A stretch of DNA of 64,000 nucleotides from a virus. The translations under genes were made by a program, and so were the position numbers. This document shows positions 5,434 to 33,183 of the stretch, piece after piece (positions within the stretch are counted from its first letter, which is position 1; the number at the start of each line of letters is the position of its first letter). The DNA lies in the IMG/VR virus record IMGVR_UViG_3300004369_000002, positions 1 through 64,000 of that record; one strand, written 5' to 3'. Below the pieces are notes generated by a model. That model was not told where the DNA came from. It did not search any database and saw only the letters and a program-made list of their open reading frames with translations.

Positions 5434-5743
5434 CGTTCTTCGCCTCGTGATCAACAACCCGAATTTTCTTTCCGTTTAACTGCATAAAAGCCTGCGCAAA
5501 CTCGTCATCACCTTCACCGGGGGCAAAAGTTTTTACGCTGGAACGCCCGTCACCAAACAGCATCCCGAAAGGATCATCAGTGGTTCGATGAGCGCTCCAC
5601 AGTTCCCCTGGGTCGGAGAAATATTCAAACCACGTATCGACCTCGGATTCATCACCAACAATCATTGTGGTTTTTCCGTCATATCTGAAAGCCCCAGTTG
5701 GCTCATCGGTATTAAGGTCCAAAAAAATGGCGTAACTGTTCAC
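5423..5743 (-). CDS. Small acidic protein of unknown function
   Basis: A 106-residue acidic protein with a GTG start that overlaps the stop of the 2454-residue gene (GTGA), a coupled arrangement. Its opening (MNSYAIFLDLNTDEPTGAF) resembles the opening of the giant protein upstream (KDINTQELYGAVIHDGK). Both run as a short strand, a polar turn, G-A and then D-G-K-[ST], so an ancient partial duplication or a shared beta-rich domain is possible. No enzymatic motif is visible. Function is unknown. Confidence 0.6.
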   Translation of the reverse strand: MNSYAIFLDLNTDEPTGAFRYDGKTTMIVGDESEVDTWFEYFSDPGELWSAHRTTDDPFGMLFGDGRSSVKTFAPGEGDDEFAQAFMQLNGKKIRVVDHEAKNDGK

Positions 5744-8700
5744 TGGGCACCTCGCGGAATGGAAAGTTTTCTCTTCAAATAATCTCTGTGCTCACTGGCA
5801 CGATCAACCTTAGTCTTCAGATGATCGTAAATTTCACCCAGTCGCTGCTCGCGGACACCCCGAACATCCGCACCGCCTACAGTGTCTGGGGCGCCGATCG
5901 ACATTCGACGAATGAACTCGTCACGTCCACCTGAAATAGCAGAACGATAACGGCTCACCATCTCATCGTAACGTTCCAACATTTCACGACGGAACCGAGT
6001 AGCCTCTGCCCGGCTTAATGACCGAACATGATCCTGCATCTCAGGGAATAGTCGCGAATCCATTGCGAACTTGTATGAGGACACAGGGGCATTCGCGCCC
6101 AGCCATTGGTATTGAGGAAGATTGCCGTAGAAACCAACTGCTACACGCCCCTGGTCGTAAGGAACAACAATCGCATTTCCGTTTTCATCAATGAATGTTC
6201 CACCATTCCTGTTATGACGGTCTGCTGAACCCAAGAAAAAGTTATGGAAGAAGTGTGCAGTTCTTGCAGGCAAGCCACGATCGGGAGCGTTGGCTAGTAA
6301 AGCCGGATCATAATCCGCCGCCCCCCGAGTCAACGGGCCATTCCCTGGGGCAAGGTTTGCTGCATGAGGAATCACCGCAAAAACCGCCTCCTCACCCTGA
6401 CCACGACCTCTCACACGCGGGTTCAACTGCGACGTACCAACATAGCCAGCACCCTCAGGCATAATTCCCACAGCAGCGGCGAGGTTATAACTGGCCACCT
6501 CGGCGTAAACGTCATCCATAATGCCTTGGCCGACTTGGTTGGGCCGAGAACCCTTGATTACGAGACCCTGGTTGGTTGGCCTACCGTCTGCATCTCGTAA
6601 CAAGAAAATACGAGTATCCGCTATGTTGCCGTCACGCGGAGGCTTCTCGTAGAACATTGAACCAGGATCAACCTCGGTTCGTGACGAGTTGGCTTGAATT
6701 GCCGAAATCCAATATTGATTTGGAACTTCGCTGAGGCTTCCGCCACTGCGCAAGAAATTGGCTGCCTGCTCGGAAGATTTGATAGAAGCATTCTCAATGA
6801 GACGTGGCTCGGGAAGGTCCCCGGGAGCAACTACAGGTGTAGCAATCTGTCCTCGGCGCTCATCCGGCGGTTGAGGACGAACAAACCCACGAAGCATGTG
6901 ACCGCCATGAACATCAACACCACGACGGTTCAATTGAACGTCAGCGGCATCAGTGGATTCATCAACAGCGTCAAATGAATGCTGGTCTAAGTACAAAGTT
7001 CCGCTACTCAACGGAGCGTTCGACCTCATCCATGCTTTAACTTTATTGATGCGAGCACGCCTGTCGTTGTCGGAACCACCATGCTCTAGAGCGTAGATAA
7101 GTTCCATACGGCTTGGTGAGGTACGACCATCATAATTTACTGCGTTTGCGCGACGAGCAAGTTCAGTGATCATTCGCGCCTGATCCTCAGTCGTAACAAT
7201 GCTGGAGCGTCCTGCACGGAACTTGAGGACTTCGTTGGCTGCTAGATTCCACAGTTCTCGCTGTGAATAACCATCACGGTATCCGACACGACCCCAGATA
7301 TAAGGACCATCAGATGCTGCACCAACTCCAACTCTGTCGAAACCGGCATCCTTCAACCAACCCCATGAATGCCCATTGAGGGCAGTGGCAACACCCATGC
7401 CTTTGAGGATGTGATGATCGTCAGGCATCGGGGTGCCGTCACTATATTTCCATACGTTCCCATCGCGCGTTACGCGTCGACCAGTGATCATGTCAATATC
7501 GCTTGTTGATGCAGTCTGGTAACTGTCGTGGCCCACAGAGAAAACAGAACTGGAAATCTTTCCATCGCTGCCGATCATGCGCGTAAAGGCGCCGACATTG
7601 TTTGACACCTCGGTTCCATCAGCCATTTTTGCAACAAGTCTTCCGTAAATGCTAATGGTGCCTCTGCTGAACTGAACATCGCTGACGACAGAACGCACGG
7701 ATGTTCCTTGTGGTCCTTCTACTTCTATTTCGTAAAGATTCTTCACCCACTCTTTAATTTTGCGTTTTTCCTCGGGTGTTCCGTTCGCCAATTTGTCAGC
7801 CATGGTCGCTGCAGTCAATGGATGTTCACCGCCATTGCGACGCTTATAGTTATCCCACGGATTACCCGTATCATTCGGATACTTCTTGCGGAAAACGGCA
7901 GTGAGCGACCGACGACGCTTCTTCTGTGCATTTTCAAGAATGCCGTCAATCATGGCAGCGGCTTCACTGTCAGTACTAATTAGATCCTGAACACCGTTAA
8001 CCACACCATTGGGCTCATTCACAACTCGCTGAGCACCAAGACCGGGATCAGGAGCCTGAGGAATACCCCACGCAGCCTGAATTGCGCGCTTACGATTCTC
8101 CAACTGCTGCCGTGTCAGCGAAGTGCGCGTCATCGACAACGCAACATATTGACCCAAATACTTTTGAAGCACATCATCTGATTGCACCCACCTACCGGCA
8201 GCAGCAATAGCACCACGGTCCAACAAATTATCAATGTCAGCCAGGCGTCGTTCATCTGCAGCCCTATCGACACCAATAGGTGCCTGATAAATATCGCGCG
8301 CACGATCAGCAACCTGACTGGCATGACCTTGAGCCAAAAGAAGTTGACGGGTCAGTTCATTGGGCGTTTCCTCAAAAAGACCCTGATCGCGTTCCCGAAG
8401 ATCTCTCTCTGACTTATACCTCTGACCCAAAGCACGCAAGAAGTTGCGCCCATCACCATCACCCTCAAGCCCCACACGCGCAGCATCAACCATCGCCTGA
8501 TACGACGCCACCCACGAATCAACATCAGACTTCAACTCATCGATACGCCCTTCAATTGTCTGAGGCATATCACCAGGAACTGTCCGGTTATACAACAACT
8601 CGCGATTTCGCCTGATATTTTCGGCATGACGTTTCATCGAAGAAGCAGCAACCGCCATACGGTTAGCGTCGTCGCGACCCATCCCTATACGACGACGCAA

Positions 8701-16084: not shown

Positions 16085-17566
16085 TCAGAACTGGTCTTTT
16101 AGATCTTCTTCTGCTTCGATGATCTGGAATTCCATCAGGCTTGCAAGGAAAGCGTCATCGGACTTTTCTCCTGCTGCTTCAGCCTGGATCTTCTTCGGAA
16201 CCCACGACTCGGGAATGAGATCTTCCAAACCAAGATCCATGGCCCGCTTCATGATGTGCTTCTTAGCAGCGTCCTTGTCCTTGGCTCGGCCAAAGGCCTG
16301 GATGGCGTTGCGAAGATCGGCTTCGTCCTTGATCGGGTACGAGCCGTCCGGCAACGCTTCACCGCTTTCAGACATTGCTGACCGAGCATCCTCGTCGTAC
16401 GCTCGCTTCAATGCAATCTCGGCTGCCTCGGCCTCAATTTCCTCAACCTCATCGGCTTCGTACTCATCGATACGAATGCCGGTTCCATCGACCCCAACGA
16501 ACACGTCGTACGACTTGCCATTGAGACCGTCAACTTCGAAGACGTAAGCGTCATATCCATCCACAATGTCCGAGTCCGCCATGACAACCGAACCGGCAGT
16601 CTTGAACTCGGTGTGGAGAAGATCCAAAGCAATGTCCTCTGCCGTCTTGATGTCGACGATTCGGATTGCTTCTTCTTGGTCCAAAGACTTTTCGCCGAAT
16701 GCTGTTCCCATGTCCGAGGCATTCAAACGATGGAAGTTGATGATTTCGCCCGTTGCACCGTCAGCAAGAACCTCAACGGCACGACCATCCTTGGCGAGAA
16801 CATCCACGATGAACAGTTCCATTTCGTCGGAATATCCGGAGTAGAGAACCTTGCCACCGAACATATCCAACGTCATTCCTTCGACGTCCAACAATCCTGG
16901 CATTCCCTGCTCTGCGGCGCACCCTCCAGGGCAGTTGGCGCAAACGTCAGACTCACCCGGGTAAACCTTGCGCTCAAACTGGCAAAGGAAAGCGCCATCG
17001 GGATCGTCGAAGTCCTCGGACTTGACACCCATAGCGTTCATCGCGCGGGCACGCGAACGCTTCTTGGGCTTCATCATCCAGGTCTTGCCCTCTTCGTCTT
17101 CTTCGTCCTCGGTCATGACGTCTTCGGCGGGCATTTCCTCGTCGTCCATCATTTCCTTGGCTCCGAGGTTCTCTTCGCGCATTTCCATTTCACGCTTCTT
17201 GCGCTTCTTGAGAGTGGCGTTCACCTCGTCGGTGTAATCCTCGTCGACCTCTTCGGCTGCTTCCATGGCACCCTTTTGGGTGACAGCCATAGCGCCACAG
17301 GCACCACAAACTTTTGCGCCAGCCTTATAGCCACATTCATCACTTCCAAGACCTTTGGCGCATTTAACAACTGCACCGTCTGCGTCGATCTTTACGACGG
17401 CCTTTTCGCTGAGTTCTTCCATTTCCTCGTTCTCCTTGTACTGCATGGCCCGTGACAAGCAGCCTTTGGGATTAGAGCACCCGTCACAGGGTTCCATGAC
17501 TTTGCGTCCTGAAACCATGCAGTGGTACTTGGTTGTGATTTTTTCTAGAGATTTCTCCGTTGTCAT
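16085..17566 (-). CDS. Acidic Cys-rich head-assembly protein with PepSY-like domains
   Basis: A 493-residue, very acidic protein lying directly downstream of the protease gene, where scaffold or decoration proteins usually sit. Three cysteine clusters look zinc-binding: CDGCSNPKGC near 27-36, C..GLGSDEC...CGACG near 69-91, and a C..F...CANCPGGC cluster near 200-220. Two related alpha/beta repeats follow, with VLADGATGEIINFHRL and VFEVDGLNGKSYDVFVGVDG. They resemble PepSY units. Near 405-460 is DGSYPIKDEADLRNAIQAFG with AKKHIMKRAMDLG, a block common in phage head-assembly and protease proteins. AGGAC lies before the ATG. A scaffold or capsid-internal role is likely but not proven. Confidence 0.7.
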   Translation of the reverse strand: MTTEKSLEKITTKYHCMVSGRKVMEPCDGCSNPKGCLSRAMQYKENEEMEELSEKAVVKIDADGAVVKCAKGLGSDECGYKAGAKVCGACGAMAVTQKGAMEAAEEVDEDYTDEVNATLKKRKKREMEMREENLGAKEMMDDEEMPAEDVMTEDEEDEEGKTWMMKPKKRSRARAMNAMGVKSEDFDDPDGAFLCQFERKVYPGESDVCANCPGGCAAEQGMPGLLDVEGMTLDMFGGKVLYSGYSDEMELFIVDVLAKDGRAVEVLADGATGEIINFHRLNASDMGTAFGEKSLDQEEAIRIVDIKTAEDIALDLLHTEFKTAGSVVMADSDIVDGYDAYVFEVDGLNGKSYDVFVGVDGTGIRIDEYEADEVEEIEAEAAEIALKRAYDEDARSAMSESGEALPDGSYPIKDEADLRNAIQAFGRAKDKDAAKKHIMKRAMDLGLEDLIPESWVPKKIQAEAAGEKSDDAFLASLMEFQIIEAEEDLKDQF

Positions 17567-17627
17567 TTTACACGTCCTGGTCTATTTGTTTGTAAACACA
17601 GGTCTTGTAGACACATTAGTGGATATT

Positions 17628-19331
17628 TCATTGTGCTGTGTAGAAGTTCCGGACAGCATTTGTCAACGCCAGTTCAAGTTCGTCTCGCTGTGAAGTATTG
17701 AGGGCCTTTACTGTGATCCCGTTTTCGTGAACTTCTGCCTCAGCCTGATGATGCGACAACACTGGATCAATGAAAGAGCGAAGGTCGAATAGTTCCGACA
17801 TCTTGGCCTCAACCAAAATGGTGTCGTCCTGCTCCTTCATTTCGATTTCGGAGCGCCCGCCAGCAGCAATGATTTCCTGGAGGATTTCCATGGCCCGCTG
17901 GAGTTTCTCCAGATTGCCTGCACTGATGACGCGTCCGGCCTTGAATTCAACATCCTCGGCGTCAAGGGCTGCAAACATTTCGTCAAGGTTGGCGTAGACG
18001 TCCTTGCGCAAAGATTTGCCACACGAACATCCAGTCTTGCCATACTCCTCATCGTCGTCATCCTCATAATCGGATGGCTTAGGAATACGACGCTCCTCAC
18101 CTTCGTCATCGCCCTCGTACTCGTTGCCGTAACCAGCCTCTTCGTCGCCGTCCTCCATCTCCATGTAGACGGTACGGGCTACAACTTGTACAGGATCTCC
18201 GAACATGAACTGGCCATCTTCATAGTGGTAGCCAACCCTCATCGTCATCGGCTTTCCATCGTGCAGATGATCGAAGATGACCTGATTTTTCGACACTTGG
18301 CGCATACGAACCGGCCCGCCGAATCGTTTCCCAATCTCGGCGACTAGCGAACGCATCATGTTCATCGCGGGGGACATTGGCATCATCCCCCACCCGCCTT
18401 TTTCTTGAGCCGTTTCGTCGACCTCGGGAAGAGTCTCGTCGGCCTTTTTCTTCATATCCGACTTCTTCATAGCCTCCCGGACCACATTCTTCATGAAGTC
18501 CTCGCCCCTGCTCCCCACTGCCAGCCACTTGATCTGTGCGATCACGCCGGGAAGCCGGAAGTCTTGAGCGTGGCGGGCCACCCATGCTTCGCGCAGTTCT
18601 AGAGCGTTTACCTGGTCGGGAGTGTCCGCCAGTCCGCCGCTTTCCGCGATCTTCGTGAGGATCGCGTATTGGGCGTTCCCCTTGATATTTCCGCCTTTGG
18701 CCCAAATCTCTGGATATTCCTCTTTTATGCGAGCCGCGAATTCACGGTCGAACATCTTCCATTTGCTCTTACCAAAGGAGTCAACTTTCTGCTCGCCTGT
18801 TTCACTCTTAATCGAAATAGTACCAGTTAACTGATTAGCCCCATGAAGAACAGGGCTAACTTCGTAAAGTTCTACTTCACGTAGCAGATTTGCTTGACGG
18901 TTATTGTCATAAATGGCGTCCAAAGTCTTGTAGCCAATGCTCCATTCCTGCTCTTCACCATAGAAAGCAACATTGGCAAATGCCTCTCGCCCCTTCTCGG
19001 ACTTGAGGTTGAACTGGACTCGGGCAAAAAGGCCACCGATACCAGCAGCCTTCATTTTGCCGGGCAGACGCGGATCGCTCGCCGGAACTTCGTAGATCTC
19101 CAGAACCTTGCCGATTGGATGATTCCAGTCGTGACCCCACACGACACGAGGCTTGCGACGCTTGAGACTTTCAGTAAATGCGCCGGGCAGAACAATGTCA
19201 CCCACGGAGTCCTTATTGCCAACACCAGAAACAAAACACTCAACGATGCCTTTTGCCTCGTCAACGTTAATTTGCCCGCTGATTGCCTTGAACTCTACCG
19301 AGCCCGACTGACCTGAAATAGTGGATGGCAT
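17628..19331 (-). CDS. Prohead maturation protease with scaffold-like C-terminal region
   Basis: A 567-residue herpesvirus-type serine protease (HK97 gp4-like family). Residues 28-50 read GIVECFVSGVGNKDSVGDIV, WGHDWNHPIGK places a catalytic His at about 67, and EEQEWSIGYK places the nucleophilic Ser at about 131. Residues 200-290 carry an inserted block (YPEIWAKGGNIKGN, then LREAWVARH and VIAQIKWLA) found in many actinophage head proteins. The C-terminus has an acidic stretch, GCSCGKS, and a GRVISAGNLEKLQRAMEIL helix typical of a scaffolding segment. The protease probably assembles with the capsid protein, cuts its N-terminal domain and then itself. GAGGTGA precedes the ATG. It is longer than minimal relatives because of the fused scaffold. 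Confidence 0.9.
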   Translation of the reverse strand: MPSTISGQSGSVEFKAISGQINVDEAKGIVECFVSGVGNKDSVGDIVLPGAFTESLKRRKPRVVWGHDWNHPIGKVLEIYEVPASDPRLPGKMKAAGIGGLFARVQFNLKSEKGREAFANVAFYGEEQEWSIGYKTLDAIYDNNRQANLLREVELYEVSPVLHGANQLTGTISIKSETGEQKVDSFGKSKWKMFDREFAARIKEEYPEIWAKGGNIKGNAQYAILTKIAESGGLADTPDQVNALELREAWVARHAQDFRLPGVIAQIKWLAVGSRGEDFMKNVVREAMKKSDMKKKADETLPEVDETAQEKGGWGMMPMSPAMNMMRSLVAEIGKRFGGPVRMRQVSKNQVIFDHLHDGKPMTMRVGYHYEDGQFMFGDPVQVVARTVYMEMEDGDEEAGYGNEYEGDDEGEERRIPKPSDYEDDDDEEYGKTGCSCGKSLRKDVYANLDEMFAALDAEDVEFKAGRVISAGNLEKLQRAMEILQEIIAAGGRSEIEMKEQDDTILVEAKMSELFDLRSFIDPVLSHHQAEAEVHENGITVKALNTSQRDELELALTNAVRNFYTAQ

Positions 19332-26318: not shown

Positions 26319-27015
26319 AATTGGATACGTGGCATCAGGTCCTGCTTTGGACTATTACAGCAGCCTTGCGCACCACCCAACGTTTCATCCAGTCAGAGAA
26401 GAAATCCCAGTTCGTGGGAGGGCCTTGCGTTGTCCAGCATTCAACGAATACTGCCAATCGGCATTCAATATTCATGTCCCCTACGACTTGAAGTTCCGAA
26501 TCAAACGGGCCCCACAAAACAAGGAACCGTTCATTGAGTACGATCGGTCTCAGACATCTCTTGACGAAGAGGGATGTGGCCATGCGCTTGCGTTGCAAGA
26601 CCTGGATGACGGTGTCGCCCAGTTGAGCCTACATCCGTTTTTTATGTTCCTCTCAGATACGCCAGATGTCATTATGACAGTCCTTGGCGCACAGGGCCAA
26701 ACTAACCCTGAGCCGATTCGTGGCCAATTCAACATTTACAACTGGTTTCGCGGCACATCGTACGCCTTCAAGGTAGAGGAGGAGAAGTGGTATACGATTT
26801 CACGAAGTAGCCCTATCTATCAAGTGAAGTTTTACCATCCTTCAGAAACGCATTTTCTTGTGGCCGAAGCACTCAAAACACCATTCCTTGACTCGCGCGA
26901 ATCAGGACAACGACTGCATGGAATGATTGGTCCACAGAAATGGCCATCGATTTTTGACTTCAACAAAAAGAGGCGGCCGAAGAAAGTTATTCAATTCCTG
27001 AACGAATTCGAATGA
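26311..27015 (+). CDS. Hypothetical protein, DUF6065-like
   Basis: A 234-residue soluble protein. Its ordered blocks match the DUF6065 class: RCPAFNEYCQSAFNIHVPYDLKF, then HPFFMFLSDTPDVIMTV, PIRGQFNIYNWFRG, and KWYTISRSSPIYQVKFYHP. The 282-1091 gene shows the same order with low identity. It overlaps both HNH and RuvC-like genes by a few bases, so it travels with the recombination operon. Function is unknown. The fold looks like a beta-rich single domain with possible small-molecule binding. The family call rests on motif memory. Confidence 0.6.
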   Translation: MIKIGYVASGPALDYYSSLAHHPTFHPVREEIPVRGRALRCPAFNEYCQSAFNIHVPYDLKFRIKRAPQNKEPFIEYDRSQTSLDEEGCGHALALQDLDDGVAQLSLHPFFMFLSDTPDVIMTVLGAQGQTNPEPIRGQFNIYNWFRGTSYAFKVEEEKWYTISRSSPIYQVKFYHPSETHFLVAEALKTPFLDSRESGQRLHGMIGPQKWPSIFDFNKKRRPKKVIQFLNEFE

Positions 27016-27533
27016 ACGTTATCGGCTTAGATCTTTCGTTGACATCGACGGGCGTTTCGGGCAACGGCACAATGGCCGTTATCAGCACCCCGACAAAGGG
27101 AGCGGAACGTCTACACCTAATGTCCATGATGATCATGGAACACTTCAGTGATATCAACAAAAAAGTTGCGATCATTGAGGGCTACTCTTTCGCAAGCCGA
27201 AATAGCCAAGCCCATTCCATTGGTGAGTTGGGGGGCGTTGTCCGGGTTGAATTATGGCGACGGAACATCCCATACATAGAGGTTCCGCCAACAGCGCGAG
27301 CAAAATTTGCGACAGGAAAAGGCAACGCCAGCAAAATAGAAGTGATGTCAGCCGTGTCGGCAAGGACCGGAACAGTGTGGTCAGGCCCAGGTGCTGACGA
27401 CATGTGCGATGCGTGGATACTTGAAGAAATGGGCCTATGTGCCCAAGGCCAAGAACGTTTCGAATGGCCCCACCAGAATCGGTCGGCGCTGGAGTCAATC
27501 GACTGGAGCGCACTAAGGAGTGACGATGAATAG
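27012..27533 (+). CDS. RuvC-like Holliday junction resolvase
   Basis: A 173-residue RNase H-fold nuclease. The first strand carries GLDLSLTSTG (Asp 7), the second acidic ligand lies in AIIEGYSF (Glu 56), and the C-terminal ligands are in GADDMCDAW (Asp 129, 130, 133). Between them, SIGELGGVVR and VPPTARAKFATGKG match the substrate-binding region of phage and bacterial RuvC relatives. It would cut four-way junctions from recombination-driven replication before packaging. It overlaps its neighbours by four and eight bases. Confidence 0.88.
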   Translation: MNVIGLDLSLTSTGVSGNGTMAVISTPTKGAERLHLMSMMIMEHFSDINKKVAIIEGYSFASRNSQAHSIGELGGVVRVELWRRNIPYIEVPPTARAKFATGKGNASKIEVMSAVSARTGTVWSGPGADDMCDAWILEEMGLCAQGQERFEWPHQNRSALESIDWSALRSDDE

Positions 27534-27870
27534 AAGTCAACCCATCAGCCAGGTTGAGGTTGAAGAAGAAATTCTTCGGTTGTCCGGGATGCTGGAAGAA
27601 GAAACAGAATCGTTTGAAATACTTGCTCAGGATGCGGCAGTTAAAGAAGCGATGTACAAGTCGTCGTGGGCCAAGGAGTACCTCGCCGCTAAGGGTTCAA
27701 TCAAAGAACGAGAAGCATGGGCCGATTACAAATTGGAGCAAGAAATCTATAACTGGAAAATTTCGGAAGCGTTAGTGAAGGCCAAGAGAGAAAAACTCCA
27801 TTCACTACGGACAAGTATCGATGCCTTGAGAACTATCGCTGCGAACGTAAGGGCACAGGTGAACCCATGA
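27526..27870 (+). CDS. Small coiled-coil protein
   Basis: A 114-residue, almost entirely helical, charged protein (VEVEEEILRLSGMLEEETESFE...). I use the ATG at 27526, with AAGGAG five bases upstream; a GTG two codons earlier sits on the ribosome site itself. It overlaps the resolvase and ParB-like genes. No family is recognised. It could be an adaptor for one of them. Confidence 0.6.
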   Translation: MNRSQPISQVEVEEEILRLSGMLEEETESFEILAQDAAVKEAMYKSSWAKEYLAAKGSIKEREAWADYKLEQEIYNWKISEALVKAKREKLHSLRTSIDALRTIAANVRAQVNP

Positions 27871-28658
27871 GCGACAATGCGACACACAAGGTAAGTTCGG
27901 ATCTTCATAACCTGCTGGTTCCTATTGACAGTTTAGTTCCGCTTCCAAATAACCCACGCAAGGGAAGTGTTGAAGCGATCATGGCGTCGTACGGAGAATT
28001 CGGTCAACAGAAGCCAATCGTGGTTCGACCCAACGATGACGGTACGGCGACCGTTATTGCCGGGAATCATCAGGCCGAGGCCGCACGACGTTTGGGCTGG
28101 AGTCATATTGCGGCAGTCAAAATGGAGGCCGATGACTCGCGTGCGATTGCTTTTGCTTTAGCGGATAACCGAACGAACGAGTTGGGTCATACTGATCCAG
28201 AGTTGCTCAACAACTTGTTGGATGACATCACGGATTTCTACCCTGAACTTTTGGACGGTTTGGGCTGGGACGATTTTGAGTTGGCTGCCCTGGGGGAGCA
28301 GGCAGGCAGATTGGAAAGGTCTGGGGAAACTGGATATATACCGCCAGTAATTATTTCCTCGGTTCAGGAGCCAGAGCAAGACCTGTCGGGGATGGCTGTG
28401 GATAACTCCGATGATGGCCCCCGAATTGTGCCAGCAGCGAACGTGGACGCCAAGTCTGTGGCCGCCTTGGGGAGCACCAGTATTGGTGCCTCGGGGTCAA
28501 ATAAGGCGTTAGTCCAGTACACGGTAGTTTTTGACGACACTAGCCAGCAGGAAAAATGGTATAGGTTTATGAGGTGGCTACGTAGCGATGTGTCCATCGA
28601 TGGCGATACATTTGGGGCAAAACTCATCAATTTTATTGATGCTCACGCTGACTACTAG
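27867..28658 (+). CDS. ParB-like nuclease-domain protein
   Basis: A 263-residue protein with an N-terminal ParB/Srx-type domain: VPIDSLVPLPNNPRKGS, FGQQKPIVVRP, VIAGNHQAEAARRLGW and a following DNRTNELGH segment. This fold binds or hydrolyses nucleotides and binds DNA. In phages it occurs beside methylases and terminases. The C-terminal half has a leucine-rich helix (LLNNLLDDITDFYPELLDGLGWDDFEL), a linker and a terminal domain. It is the last gene of the recombination operon before a new promoter. Its exact role (regulator, nickase or DNA-modification partner) is not determined. Confidence 0.8.
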   Translation: MSDNATHKVSSDLHNLLVPIDSLVPLPNNPRKGSVEAIMASYGEFGQQKPIVVRPNDDGTATVIAGNHQAEAARRLGWSHIAAVKMEADDSRAIAFALADNRTNELGHTDPELLNNLLDDITDFYPELLDGLGWDDFELAALGEQAGRLERSGETGYIPPVIISSVQEPEQDLSGMAVDNSDDGPRIVPAANVDAKSVAALGSTSIGASGSNKALVQYTVVFDDTSQQEKWYRFMRWLRSDVSIDGDTFGAKLINFIDAHADY

Positions 28659-28659
28659 G

Positions 28660-28688
28660 TTGTGAACATGCCTGGAACCAGGTAAGAT
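28660..28688 (+). promoter_or_regulatory. Sigma70-type promoter driving the deacetylase cassette
   Basis: TTGTGA (28660-28665) and TAAGAT (28683-28688) are spaced by exactly 17 bp. The spacer contains CCTGG-AACCAGG, a small inverted repeat. The ATG of the next gene lies seven bases after the -10 box, where transcription would start, and there is no ribosome site. A leaderless transcript, common in Actinobacteria, is therefore predicted. Confidence 0.7.
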
Positions 28689-28694
28689 GTTGAC

Positions 28695-29579
28695 ATGGAT
28701 ATTTATTACAACCCCGACTACACCGCTTCTGAATACTCGTTTGATACAACGAGGAAAGCAACCCTGATCGCCGAGGCAGCCCAACAGAGGCTGGGTGATG
28801 CCGTCCAGATCGTTTCCCCCGAGCAGTTCTACCAGGAAACCGAAGACTGGATCCGACTGACCCATTCGTCCGAATACGTCGATGCAGTCAAGACCGGAAA
28901 ACCGCGCCACCTCGCCGAAAGCCAAGGATTCAAGTGGGACGAAAAGTTCTACTCAATGGTTGTCGCCCACAATGCTGGCGTTGTCGCCGCTATGCACGAC
29001 GCCATTTATGACAACAAGACATCAATCACCCTGTCATCCGGTCTGCATCACGCACGAAAGGACTATGGCAGTGGGTTCTGCACCTTCAATGGTCTCGCTG
29101 TAGCCACGAACTATGCGCTCAACCAAGGAGTCAAGAACATTCTGATCATTGACTTCGACGCTCACGGAGGCGGAGGAACCTATTCGCTTGTCGGCGGAAA
29201 AGTCACTCACGTTGATCTCATCACCTCCCCGTTCGACGTAGCCGATGAGCATGATGGCCGGTCGCTAATTATTGTCAGCGAAACCGATGACGAAACATAC
29301 CTCGCCAACGCCGAGGCACTGTTGGCTTTCGGCACAACATTCCACCATCAGGTCGCTATCTACAACGCCGGGATGGATCCGTACAACTCTGGAGTGAGCA
29401 AAGAAGCGTTGATCGCCAGAGAGGAAATGGTTGCAAACACTCTAGGCCAGATGGGAATCCCTACGGTTGTCACAATGGCTGGCGGATACAAGAGCGGAAA
29501 GGTGATTACGATGCAGGACATCGCTGATCTTCACGTTTCAACCATTGAACAGTTTGCTCTTGTCGGAGCGAATCGATGA
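28695..29579 (+). CDS. HDAC-like deacetylase (arginase/deacetylase superfamily)
   Basis: A 294-residue zinc-dependent amidohydrolase of the histone-deacetylase / acetylpolyamine amidohydrolase / AcuC superfamily. All active-site elements are present: the His pair GLHHA (118-119), GFCTFNG (127-133), zinc ligands in DFDAH (Asp 155, His 157), NAGMDPY (Asp 228) and the transition-state Tyr in AGGY (265). Substrates in this superfamily include acetyl-lysine, acetylpolyamines and related amides; which applies here is unknown. It opens a four-gene unit joined by ATGA overlaps and has its own promoter. Intact catalysis suggests it acts on a host or phage target during infection. Deacetylases of this type are uncommon in phages. 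Confidence 0.88.
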   Translation: MDIYYNPDYTASEYSFDTTRKATLIAEAAQQRLGDAVQIVSPEQFYQETEDWIRLTHSSEYVDAVKTGKPRHLAESQGFKWDEKFYSMVVAHNAGVVAAMHDAIYDNKTSITLSSGLHHARKDYGSGFCTFNGLAVATNYALNQGVKNILIIDFDAHGGGGTYSLVGGKVTHVDLITSPFDVADEHDGRSLIIVSETDDETYLANAEALLAFGTTFHHQVAIYNAGMDPYNSGVSKEALIAREEMVANTLGQMGIPTVVTMAGGYKSGKVITMQDIADLHVSTIEQFALVGANR

Positions 29580-30112
29580 ACACTAGGCCGTTGGCCCCCC
29601 ACGGCACACACAATCGATATTCAAAAGGGTGCAGGTGCGACGAGTGTCGTGTCGCTCACCGTCTTTACGAAAGAGAACGGAACCGTATGAGAACACGAGC
29701 AAGATACGGGATTGAGCCAATGCCGGAACGTCTGGTAGATGCAACGCAAGCAAGAGAACATCTACGTTTCCTACAATCCAAGGGGATCGGTGGATACAGC
29801 ATTGCGAAGCGTGCCTACACGACACGAAACTACGTGACCGAGATTCGGGCAAATCGCGTGAAACGAATCAACAAAGAGTTGAATGAAAGACTCCTCGCAA
29901 TACCGGCGATACCCACCCTTGACGGGCAGTATGTCGATGCTGAACCTGCTCGCCAAATGGTGAAAGATCTTCTGGAAGCGGGGGTCACGAAAACAGAAAT
30001 CGTTCGGTTCATTTCAGGACCCAAGGCCAGGCAACTTGTGATCAAAGACAAGATGCGGTTGAAGCGCATGGAAAAGTTGCGGACACTTCACGGACAGATG
30101 GTTCGACGATGA
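29576..30112 (+). CDS. Zn-motif and helix-turn-helix DNA-binding protein
   Basis: A 178-residue basic protein. The N-terminus has HGTHNRYSKGCRCDECRVAHR, a C-x-C-x2-C motif like that of the 47-residue protein at 25810, followed by a basic helix. Residues about 70-115 (GIGGYSIAKRAYTTRNYVTEIRA...) look like a helix-turn-helix, and a second such unit (EAGVTKTEIVRFISG) lies near 135. It probably binds DNA and may regulate the cassette or guide its enzymes. ATGA overlaps join it to the deacetylase and the PAPS-reductase-like gene. Confidence 0.7.
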   Translation: MNTRPLAPHGTHNRYSKGCRCDECRVAHRLYERERNRMRTRARYGIEPMPERLVDATQAREHLRFLQSKGIGGYSIAKRAYTTRNYVTEIRANRVKRINKELNERLLAIPAIPTLDGQYVDAEPARQMVKDLLEAGVTKTEIVRFISGPKARQLVIKDKMRLKRMEKLRTLHGQMVRR

Positions 30113-31272
30113 CCAGACAAAGAATGTTTCTGGACATTTCATGCGTTGACGCTGCGCGAGAACGAATTCGGCATGTGTACGACACCTTTGATACGGTCTG
30201 TGTTCAATTTTCGGGAGGAAAAGACTCCACGGCAGTTTTGTACCTTGCTAAAGAAATTCACGAAGAGCGCAACCTTGGACCGGTAAAGGTTATTTTCCGT
30301 GACGAGGAGATGGTTTCGCCACTCGTATTGGATTACATCCATGAGGTTCAGAACTATGACTGGGTCGACATGGAATGGTATTGCCTCCCCCAGGGCCAAG
30401 AAATTTGGGTTCTTGGACGGCGTGAATACTGCTTATTGTGGTCTCCAGCCAGAGAAAGTGATGGGAGGCTTTATAGGCCGATCCCTGACGGCGCGATTAC
30501 AGCAAAAGATTTTGGGCTGGATCCTGCGAAACCCATTCCCGAATCAATCGACTACTACACCATGCAAGGCAAAAAGGGTCGTACGGCTTTTTTGACCGGG
30601 GTGCGGGCGAACGAATCAATGATCCGTTACCGGTCATGCGTTCAGAAGTTGCATGAGAATTACATAAATATTCCGTTCAAAATGAAAAAGTCGATTCCCT
30701 TAAGATTCGCAAAGGTGATTTATGACTGGACCACTGACGATGTTCTCAAATTCATCACGGAAGAACACAACGCCTCATACTGCGAGTACTACGATCTCGC
30801 AGCGATTACTGGGTCGAATACCAGAGTGGGTATTCCTTTGCACGCTGTTGCCATTCGCCGTATTGGTGATGTTGTTGCTACGGAGCCTGAGTTTTATGAT
30901 CGACTGTACCAATGCTTTCCGCAGATTGATGCGCAAAGGCGGTGGTGGCCAGACTTCGATGTTGAGTCGCTTATTCGATCGTATTCGGTCGATGGCTGGG
31001 ATGGAGTCCGCCGATGTGTAGAAGAGAACATTCTGACGCCTGGCTTGCGTCAACGAGGAATGGCATTTGCCGCAGAATTTCGCAAAAAGCACGTGAAGGA
31101 TCCCAATGCTTATCCGATTCACTGGCTGATTCGCAATTTGCTGATGCATGAGTTCAATATCACGTCAGTGAACCCGATCGGACCAAAAACGAAGGCGTAT
31201 GCGATGCAGCAGGAGGAAGCAGAAATCATGTCAAGTTTGGATGCCTTGGATTATCAGGATGATTCGCGATGA
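30109..31272 (+). CDS. PAPS reductase-like PP-loop enzyme, IbrA/DUF3440-like
   Basis: A 387-residue adenine-nucleotide alpha hydrolase-type protein. The PP-loop is VQFSGGKDSTAVLYLA (about 33-48), followed by VKVIFRDEEM, LTGVRANESMIRYR and YDWTTDDVLKFI. It is longer than true PAPS reductases and lacks their C-terminal cysteine signature, placing it with IbrA/DUF3440-type proteins, which typically occur with a ParB-like IbrB. That partner lies directly downstream with a four-base overlap. PP-loop relatives include DndC, which takes part in DNA phosphorothioation, so nucleotide or DNA sulfur chemistry is a reasonable hypothesis. The substrate is unknown. Confidence 0.85.
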   Translation: MTRQRMFLDISCVDAARERIRHVYDTFDTVCVQFSGGKDSTAVLYLAKEIHEERNLGPVKVIFRDEEMVSPLVLDYIHEVQNYDWVDMEWYCLPQGQEIWVLGRREYCLLWSPARESDGRLYRPIPDGAITAKDFGLDPAKPIPESIDYYTMQGKKGRTAFLTGVRANESMIRYRSCVQKLHENYINIPFKMKKSIPLRFAKVIYDWTTDDVLKFITEEHNASYCEYYDLAAITGSNTRVGIPLHAVAIRRIGDVVATEPEFYDRLYQCFPQIDAQRRWWPDFDVESLIRSYSVDGWDGVRRCVEENILTPGLRQRGMAFAAEFRKKHVKDPNAYPIHWLIRNLLMHEFNITSVNPIGPKTKAYAMQQEEAEIMSSLDALDYQDDSR

Positions 31273-31820
31273 AGAAAAAGTTTGATCGTTTGCAGGTGAC
31301 GTACATGTCGCCAGAAGATCTTAAGACGGCTGAATGGTGGAGCAATTACATGCTGAAGCCAGATCGGGATCTTTTGTTGAGGAGCGCCGAACAATATGGG
31401 ATTTTGAATCCTGTTGTTGTGCAGAAGTCGACCAACATGGTCATTGACGGGCACACCCGGCTATGGGCGGCTTTAGACCTACGTATGGAAGAGATCCCAG
31501 TTGTGTTGCAGGATGTCACCAATACAGAGGCGATGCTGATGCATCTTCAGTTAAACCGAGCCAAAGGTCAGGTAGTTGCCAAGCGAATGTCGAATGTGGT
31601 GAAGGACCTACTGCGTTCGGGCAAATATTCGGAAAATGACCTGAAGTATCACCTCGTCATGAAAAGTGATGAAATGGACCTGATGGTTGACGGCTCGCTT
31701 ATCAAGATGAGAAAAGTCCACGAACACAAGTATTCCCGAGCCTGGGTTCCCGTCGAAGCGCCAGCAAAAGCCACAGACGCCCTGGGTTTCATTGAAAGAC
31801 CACCCAACCCTGACCGTTGA
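31269..31820 (+). CDS. ParB-like partner protein, IbrB-like
   Basis: A 183-residue ParB/Srx-fold protein. Visible elements are VTYMSPEDLKTAEWWSNYM, GILNPVVVQKSTNMVIDGH and TRLWAALDLRMEEIPVVL, the last carrying the G-H-T-R-L box that binds nucleotide in this fold. Its position after the PP-loop enzyme matches the known ibrA-ibrB pairing. It is distinct from the other ParB-like protein at 27867. It ends the four-gene unit. A helical C-terminal extension may provide DNA or partner binding. Confidence 0.82.
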   Translation: MKKKFDRLQVTYMSPEDLKTAEWWSNYMLKPDRDLLLRSAEQYGILNPVVVQKSTNMVIDGHTRLWAALDLRMEEIPVVLQDVTNTEAMLMHLQLNRAKGQVVAKRMSNVVKDLLRSGKYSENDLKYHLVMKSDEMDLMVDGSLIKMRKVHEHKYSRAWVPVEAPAKATDALGFIERPPNPDR

Positions 31821-31859: not shown

Positions 31860-32045
31860 ATGCCTACTCCGTCAACAATCCCAGACATCGAACTTACGCC
31901 CGAAACGGACGTTCTTCCTGACGTCACTCCGCCCGCTCCCGATGCGGGCCGTCCAGGTAGACGACCGGCTTGGTGGCGGCGCGCTTTGGCGCAGACCCTC
32001 CGTGGGGCTGCTGGCGCTATTCGACCCGGAGAAGATCGCAACTAA
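31860..32045 (+). CDS. Small Pro/Arg-rich protein
   Basis: A 61-residue protein with an excellent GGAGG ribosome site and its own predicted promoter, both arguing that it is real. The first half is acidic and proline-rich (PDIELTPETDVLPDVTPP), the second basic (GRPGRRPAWWRRALAQTLRG) and possibly an amphipathic helix. It matches no family I know. Size, strong expression signals and location between the cassette and the glycosyltransferase suggest a host-directed or regulatory peptide. Confidence 0.55.
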   Translation: MPTPSTIPDIELTPETDVLPDVTPPAPDAGRPGRRPAWWRRALAQTLRGAAGAIRPGEDRN

Positions 32046-32067: not shown

Positions 32068-32076
32068 TGCTATAGT
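32068..32076 (+). promoter_or_regulatory. Extended -10 promoter before the glycosyltransferase
   Basis: TGC-TATAGT is an extended -10 element 33 bp before the glycosyltransferase ATG. No good -35 is visible, as is usual for extended -10 promoters. GGAG lies between it and the start. Confidence 0.5.
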
Positions 32077-32109: not shown

Positions 32110-33183
32110 ATGCGTAATATCAAGATTGGCTATGCGTCGACCGACTGGTCGCGAACCATGATGACTCAAGATGGGCCGGTCCCTGGGGGTTCAAACTGGG
32201 TCCGCTTACAGCAGAGTCGTCCACATATCGGCTACGACAGTGTCACTGGGTTATTGGTTTTCCACAAAGATCGTGGATTTGGGATTTTGGATTGGCAGGA
32301 AAGGCCCCACTACAACTGCAATGTGATAGTTGTACAGCGCCTCATGTTCAAAGATCTCGCTGAAAAAATCGACGTCAGAAAAAAGTTCAACCAGATAATC
32401 ATCAACGACATAGATGACTGGTATTGGGGCTTACACGAAGATAACCACGCCTACAAGTTAACGCACCCCGATTTCAATAAAGACGAAAACATTGATCACT
32501 ATAAGCACATTATTCAAAACAGTGATGGGGTGACATCCTCAACCCCATTCCTTTTCGACAAGATGAAGAACGAATTTGGATGCACCAATGTGCATCTCAT
32601 TGAGAACCACGTCGAAGTAGACCGATTTAGAACTCGTCCAATCAATCTAAAGAAACCAGTAGTCGGATGGGTTGGATCAACCTCACATCGATCCGGCGAC
32701 CTGGAAACAATCGCCCCCGTTCTTCAAAACAAGAAATTTCGTCTACACCACTCAGGGCACGTAAATGGGGCGGCCTGGTTCGCCGACAAAATAGGTGTAT
32801 CGCGAGACAAAGTGACCAAATCTCCGATGTATGACCCGAGAGACTACGCTCGCCTTTCGTTTTGTTTTGATATCGGCATCGCCCCACTGAACGACATTCC
32901 CTTCAACCACGCCAAATCGTGGATCAAAGCCATTGAATACGCCTCAGCAGGGGTTCCTTTCGTTGCGACCAATATTGGAGAGTACCGTCGACTGTATGAG
33001 CAGTACGGGATTGGACGAGTGGCGTCAACACAGGAGGAATGGACCACCCACCTGGAAGAGTTGTGCGACATTCCCCTTCGGGGCAAAGAGGCCAGAGAGC
33101 AGCGGGAACGTGTCAAGGAAGTCCTTGACGTTCGCCTGATGGGCCAAAAATGGCGGTCCATCTTCGACGAGTACCTGCGATAG
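32110..33183 (+). CDS. Glycosyltransferase, GT-B fold (GT4-like)
   Basis: A 357-residue protein. The N-terminal half opens with IKIGYASTDWSRTMMTQDG and continues with VIVVQRLMF and IIINDIDDWYWG. The C-terminal half is the nucleotide-sugar domain: PVVGWVGSTSHRSGDLETIAPVL, YDPRDYARLSFCFDIGIAPLNDIPFNHAKSWIKAIEYASAGVPFVAT, matching the GT4 donor-binding region with its K..EYxAxGxPvvA pattern. It may glycosylate virion proteins, modified DNA or a host polymer; the sequence does not say which. It has its own promoter and precedes the neck genes. Confidence 0.85.
   Translation: MRNIKIGYASTDWSRTMMTQDGPVPGGSNWVRLQQSRPHIGYDSVTGLLVFHKDRGFGILDWQERPHYNCNVIVVQRLMFKDLAEKIDVRKKFNQIIINDIDDWYWGLHEDNHAYKLTHPDFNKDENIDHYKHIIQNSDGVTSSTPFLFDKMKNEFGCTNVHLIENHVEVDRFRTRPINLKKPVVGWVGSTSHRSGDLETIAPVLQNKKFRLHHSGHVNGAAWFADKIGVSRDKVTKSPMYDPRDYARLSFCFDIGIAPLNDIPFNHAKSWIKAIEYASAGVPFVATNIGEYRRLYEQYGIGRVASTQEEWTTHLEELCDIPLRGKEAREQRERVKEVLDVRLMGQKWRSIFDEYLR

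Follow-up and report, generated by a model that had tools for sequence, protein, structure and literature searches.

We analysed a 64,000-nucleotide stretch of viral DNA (hereafter, the window), which covers positions 1 to 64,000 of a phage contig of 104,839 bases (IMG/VR record IMGVR_UViG_3300004369_000002), and focused on positions 28660 to 31820. Four genes lie here, encoding an HDAC-like deacylase (the deacetylase), a protein with a putative Zn site and a predicted helix-turn-helix (Zn/HTH protein), a PP-loop ATP pyrophosphatase, and a ParB-like protein. The four open reading frames (ORFs) are intact and are joined by ATGA overlaps at 29576, 30109 and 31269, exactly as a first-pass annotation had described. 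The ATGA coupling continues upstream, at 27867, into another ParB gene; the block therefore begins with the genes for RuvC, a phrog_1389 protein and this upstream ParB. On the downstream side, we found a previously unannotated ORF of 61 amino acids (RRPAWWRRALA...LRG) with a good ribosome-binding site. Taking both sides together, the natural operon exceeds four genes (Table 1).

We compared the window with more than 150 related loci, numbered L. Scanning viral contigs with the PP-loop protein turned up at least 596 relatives, of which 80 were fetched. Across related loci, the constant unit was RuvC, phrog_1389, ParB, PP-loop (PAPS-reductase-like), ParB and a small WWRR protein, and loci sharing the block kept the order RuvC, phrog_1389, ParB, slot, PP-loop, ParB. 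The slot between ParB and PP-loop held both the deacetylase and Zn/HTH genes in the window, L014, L015, L016 and L043, as well as in L111, which came from the HDAC scan. It held the deacetylase gene alone in L018 and L022, the Zn/HTH gene alone in L017, L019, L020, L026, L039 and L095, and neither gene in many loci (for example, L021, L027, L032, L034, L074 and L093). The full four-gene order, for which the first-pass annotation had suggested a search, thus occurred outside the window on five contigs from about four lineages (L014/L015, L016, L043 and L111), a minority of loci. All four genes exist as described and some viruses keep them together, yet they do not make up a single inseparable system. 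The junction between ParB and PP-loop can be occupied by the deacetylase gene, the Zn/HTH gene, both or neither; each is present or absent regardless of the other, whereas ParB-PP-loop-ParB is retained. The earlier picture of a self-contained four-gene cassette is thus not supported.

On the tree of PP-loop proteins, the presence of the deacetylase gene required three changes and that of the Zn/HTH gene five; deep nodes were weak, so that gain, loss and recombination were indistinguishable. In a tree of 70 phage HDACs, the slot HDACs formed one side of a branch with an SH-aLRT (approximate likelihood-ratio test) support of 97. Given this single clade, the simplest scenario is that the gene entered the slot once. 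Slot HDACs diverge fast: they were 42-50% identical to that of the window, compared with 77-86% for the PP-loop proteins of the same loci. Slot deacetylases are under purifying selection in the single pair tested: between L014 and L016, the ratios of nonsynonymous to synonymous substitution rates (dN/dS) were 0.063 for HDAC, 0.079 for Zn/HTH, 0.002 for PP-loop and 0.027 for ParB.

The first-pass annotation had also placed a promoter with 17-bp spacing before the deacetylase gene. This element (TTGTGA-N17-TAAGAT) is weak when taken alone: it matches the consensus at 8 out of 12 positions, there are about 195 matches of this quality on the same strand of the window, and a generic promoter scan did not detect it. 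Comparison alone revealed it. Six loci had a readable ParB stop codon, slot and HDAC start (the window, L014, L018, L043, L111 and L149), and in all of them (6 out of 6) a TTG-N20-TANNNT element began 1-2 bases past the ParB stop codon. The hexamers were 17 bases apart in every case, the spacer sequences had diverged, and L018 carried the perfect TTGACA-N17-TATAAT. Such an element arose in 0.3-1.9% of single-sequence shuffles. By contrast, 0 out of 14 comparable HDAC-less junctions had it at that place, and the one chance match among them lay 434 bases into a 551-base gap. The promoter is therefore credible because it is conserved in every HDAC-bearing slot. In the five other loci, it was followed by a leader of about 30 bases and a ribosome-binding site. 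The window has no such leader; its HDAC ATG lies 6 nt after the -10 hexamer, and a leaderless mRNA is therefore predicted.

Promoter and deacetylase gene thus travel together in the manner of a moron. The insertion lies between two genes that are adjacent in relatives and, judged by sequence conservation, has its own promoter. No terminator was found on the + strand between 28695 and 30109; the deacetylase gene is translationally coupled to the downstream genes rather than terminated, so that this promoter would drive PP-loop and ParB as well.

The window deacetylase scored 92.1 bits against PF00850 (gathering score, 27.9). Its His-His dyad, Asp-His-Asp zinc ligands and catalytic Tyr (H118, H119, D155, H157, D228 and Y265) were invariant in the alignment. 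Among solved structures, the HDAC profile matched VcHdaH (9gkv/9gky) best, at 141 bits, followed by HDAC6 (about 122 bits over two domains) and acetylpolyamine amidohydrolases (APAHs; 62 bits or less). VcHdaH (PDB 9GKV, 9GKY) belongs to sub-cluster 5b of the classical deacylases of bacteria and acts as a lysine de-decanoylase (PMC11532494); it shares the catalytic residues of the window protein but is a cellular enzyme of low overall identity. A viral relative is gp202 of Rhodococcus phage E3, a putative histone deacetylase that was 42% identical over 97% of the query and has the same active site. No PP-loop or ParB gene was found within 9 kb of it.

A profile built from nine HDAC sequences found the family in at least 242 viral contigs and in 424 stretches of genome contigs, so that the family is also cellular. 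In the library searched, we found no paper on phage HDAC-type deacylases beyond giant-virus polyamine enzymes, and the only phage HDAC naming we met was the annotation of the E3 gene. Phage HDACs mostly lie outside the PP-loop slot: only 7 of the 80 best viral loci were in it, and in two phages (L003/L083 and L004/L078) the HDAC and PP-loop genes stood far apart on one contig. Neighbourhoods were readable in 77 loci, with near-identical contigs inflating the counts. The commonest neighbour was a dual-specificity-phosphatase-like gene (HCHAG[MI]SRS) directly upstream of HDAC (21/77 loci; L117:5329-5982, L137:5471-6001 and 19 others), also present there in four cellular loci or loci of metagenome-assembled or single-amplified genomes (L191, L200, L203 and L254). 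Directly downstream, 12 out of 77 loci had a C[RK]CxxC gene, compared with about 8 of some 1,350 other genes there. Both pairings also occurred in HDAC loci without a nearby PP-loop gene. Together, these neighbours suggest the erasure of protein modifications. Short HGTYxxYTNxKCRCxxC proteins touch or overlap the HDAC stop codon in L132:6972-7232, L136:6933-7184 and L177:6954-7226, with no PP-loop gene nearby.

The Zn/HTH protein has an N-terminal HGTxxxYxxGCRCxxC...H motif, a putative Zn site, in which C19, C21, C24 and H28 were invariant in ten homologues. Its AlphaFold2 (AF2) model (mean predicted local distance difference test [pLDDT] score, 83.5) contained two XRE-like HTH regions, and Foldseek gave weak matches to XRE-family HTH regulators. 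The homologues are divergent, with 26-44% identity.

The PP-loop protein retains SGGKDS, a DEE motif and a GxRAxES-type motif. The N-terminal part of its AF2 model was well predicted and matched PAPS (3'-phosphoadenosine 5'-phosphosulfate) reductase, FAD synthase and FMN adenylyltransferase; the model as a whole was only moderate (pLDDT, 66), and we therefore did not use fold hits beyond this domain. A search of PDB with the single sequence returned nothing at E 0.1, and the profile found only weak FAD synthase matches. Motifs and N-terminal fold relatives thus make adenylating chemistry likely. A ParB gene adjoined the PP-loop gene in about 35 of 79 PAPS loci. In a second phage group, whose members mostly lack adjacent ParB genes, a pyrimidine dimer DNA glycosylase gene (PF03013; L040:768-1295) recurs just upstream of the PP-loop gene.

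A ParB-flanked PP-loop gene near terminase is also present in Arthrobacter phage Kovu (genes 5-7), Mycobacterium phage Gadjet (genes 1-5) and the M. abscessus prophage prophi79-1. Their PP-loop genes were 33-39% identical to that of the window, and RuvC was close to the block in two of the three. In contrast to the window, ParB and PP-loop have no deacetylase or Zn/HTH gene between them in any of the three. Kovu (L007) has an annotated acetyltransferase gene (5694-6116) two genes past PP-loop, in its HDAC-less block.

Several known systems resemble the core. IbrA/IbrB of E. coli prophages, to which the first-pass annotation had likened the last two genes, likewise consist of a PP-loop protein adjoining a ParB-like protein (with a 4-nt gene overlap in the window), and this general likeness stands. 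However, IbrA carries a DUF3440 region, and the window protein had no DUF3440 Pfam match at E 0.1. DndC and DndB belong to the same PP-loop and ParB/Srx superfamilies, and the N-terminal 80 residues of the window PP-loop protein matched DndC weakly. We rejected Dnd-type phosphorothioation on the score of 26.5 bits against the DndC cut-off of 290.4 (TIGR03183) and on missing cysteines: DndC has a cysteine set for an Fe-S cluster, whereas C225 was the only invariant cysteine across the PP-loop family in the phage groups compared. No DndD or DndE was noticed near the window PP-loop gene. The assimilatory PAPS reductase CysH has a C-terminal catalytic cysteine motif of the ECGLH type, which was missing from the PP-loop sequence and alignment. 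We also rejected a 7-deazaguanine (Dpd-type) route, as no DpdA resembling tRNA-guanine transglycosylase (TGT; PF01702) was found on the 105-kb, possibly incomplete, contig. PADLOC gave only weak partial matches to DndC, BrxP and a methyltransferase-ParB, so membership of a known defence system was set aside.

Published parallels for the core are leads rather than tests. DndB and DpdB are documented ParB partners of DNA-modification enzymes (PMC12839542), ParB partners also occur in CmoX contexts (PMC12783734), ParB domains can act as NTPases or nucleases (PMC5512222), and prophage PAPS reductases have been compared with DndC (PMC8092301). We found no paper giving a function to the phage ParB/PAPS block.

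On balance, we lean towards a moron-like gene for a protein deacylase, carried within a ParB/PP-loop block whose likely target is DNA or nucleotides. One transcript would then carry two functional layers, an old core and a moron-like addition. The core would be the ParB-PP-loop-ParB block, which lies among the packaging and recombination genes of tailed phages that probably infect actinobacteria. Its PP-loop enzyme would activate a substrate via adenylation (AMP + pyrophosphate), its ParB/sulfiredoxin-fold proteins would bind DNA and nucleotide, and the core would most likely act on phage DNA or nucleotides. An HDAC-family deacylase gene would have entered the ParB/PP-loop junction once, as promoter plus gene and often with a small Zn/HTH DNA-binding protein. 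The promoter may allow deacylase expression independent of the upstream genes and may also drive PP-loop and ParB. Judged by its active site, its nearest homologue and the neighbours in other phages, the deacylase most likely acts on lysines in proteins of the host or phage, removing their acetyl or longer acyl groups, and it would be dispensable for the function of the core. Host takeover through protein deacylation is the hypothesis of the first-pass annotation that fits the deacetylase best. More tentatively, HDAC-type deacylases may form a dedicated phage family for erasing modifications of host proteins during infection, frequently accompanied by a CRCxxC Zn protein and a dual-specificity phosphatase; in this lineage, the deacylase would have come under its own promoter, leaderless in the window, inside a ParB/PP-loop DNA-handling operon.

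Several points weigh against the moron-like deacylase reading. About half of the fetched PP-loop loci have no adjacent ParB, so the core pairing is not universal, and the three HDAC changes on the PP-loop tree could also reflect recombination. A phosphatase gene was looked for on the contig of the window and none was found. The CRCxxC module is common in actinophages, and its pairing with HDAC may partly be shared ancestry. The sequence does not reveal the HDAC substrate, and the class of the nearest homologue argues only weakly for lysine rather than polyamine or small-molecule amides.

One alternative is an acetylpolyamine amidohydrolase that would free polyamines for packaging or replication. 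Such viral enzymes, of the same superfamily, do exist in giant viruses (PMC9992855). We nevertheless consider this unlikely for the window protein, given the low APAH profile scores relative to VcHdaH and HDAC6, its 294 amino acids against 341-353 for solved APAHs, and a protein-phosphatase-like gene as the commonest phage neighbour; no polyamine gene stood out near HDAC among the PHROG-annotated genes of the contig. Similarly improbable is a single DNA- or nucleotide-modification pathway of all four proteins, in which PP-loop and ParB would attach an acylated or amidated group, to be deacetylated afterwards by the HDAC-like enzyme. The tight translational coupling in the window, the recurrence of the full gene order in five other contigs and the outline resemblance of PP-loop plus ParB to DndC plus DndB speak for it. 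However, most PP-loop blocks have no HDAC and their PP-loop gene is still highly conserved, and most HDACs lie away from PP-loop genes. The sulfur modification of DNA proposed in the first-pass annotation found no positive support in the DndC score, the single invariant cysteine or the searches of the 105-kb contig for TGT and for an acetyl writer, which yielded no GNAT acetyltransferase (PF00583).

It is very unlikely, in our estimate, that HDAC, Zn/HTH and PP-loop jointly control phage or host promoters as transcriptional co-regulators resembling IbrA/IbrB. The two XRE-like HTH regions and the IbrAB layout are in line with such a group, but the Zn/HTH gene is optional and divergent, DUF3440 is missing from the PP-loop protein, and we know of no established biochemistry for IbrAB. 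If the moron-like gene does encode a protein deacylase, the removal of host acyl-lysine marks would be an active phage function. By telling a joint set (ParB, PP-loop, ParB) from optional genes, the slot comparison also gives a narrower starting point for working out what the widespread phage 'PAPS reductase' genes do.

Table 1. Features of the ParB/PP-loop block and the following transcription unit (window coordinates)
Feature	Position	Strand	Evidence
RuvC-like resolvase, first gene of conserved block	27012..27533	+	phrog_159 E 9e-33; same place in slot loci
phrog_1389 protein of unknown function	27520..27870	+	overlaps both neighbours
Upstream ParB-like protein, block core	27867..28658	+	phrog_723 E 5e-38; PF02195; ATGA start 27867
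HDAC-linked promoter TTGTGA-N17-TAAGAT	28660..28688	+	conserved position and spacing in HDAC-bearing slots
HDAC-like Zn-dependent deacylase, 294 aa	28695..29579	+	PF00850 E 5e-26; invariant residues; nearest solved structure 9gkv VcHdaH
Putative-Zn-site and predicted-HTH protein, 178 aa	29576..30112	+	phrog_1590 E 4e-16; alignment; AF2; weak Foldseek
PP-loop (PAPS-reductase/FAD-synthase-like) ATP pyrophosphatase, core, 387 aa	30109..31272	+	PF01507 E 2e-9; phrog_2302 E 2e-68
Downstream ParB/sulfiredoxin-fold protein, PP-loop partner, 183 aa	31269..31820	+	PF02195 ParB_N E 3e-6; phrog_2159 E 6e-23
Small conserved 61-aa protein, operon tail	31860..32045	+	homologues just after ParB, about 28 loci
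Plausible extended -10 TGCTATAGT before glycosyltransferase gene	32068..32076	+	sequence; same element in L017
Glycosyltransferase-like gene, next transcription unit	32110..33183	+	phrog_7162 E 2e-33

The gene after the block had been said to have its own promoter. The next gene is in fact the 61-amino-acid ORF rather than the glycosyltransferase gene; the latter is preceded by its own plausible extended -10 element (TGCTATAGT), which recurs before the L017 glycosyltransferase gene, with looser variants in L025-L027.

The contig belongs to a contractile-tailed phage, as indicated by head, portal, protease, terminase, tail sheath, tape measure and baseplate genes. It also encodes recombination proteins (Erf-like, exonuclease, HNH and RuvC), ribonucleotide reductase, thymidylate synthase and primase/helicase. 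The hosts are probably actinobacteria, because the same block occurs in Arthrobacter and Mycobacterium phages, HDAC relatives occur in a Rhodococcus phage and actinobacterial genomes, and L004 has WhiB-like genes. In L012, a phrog_1221 protein of unknown function (17484-18557, - strand; E 4e-60) is encoded near the contig end.

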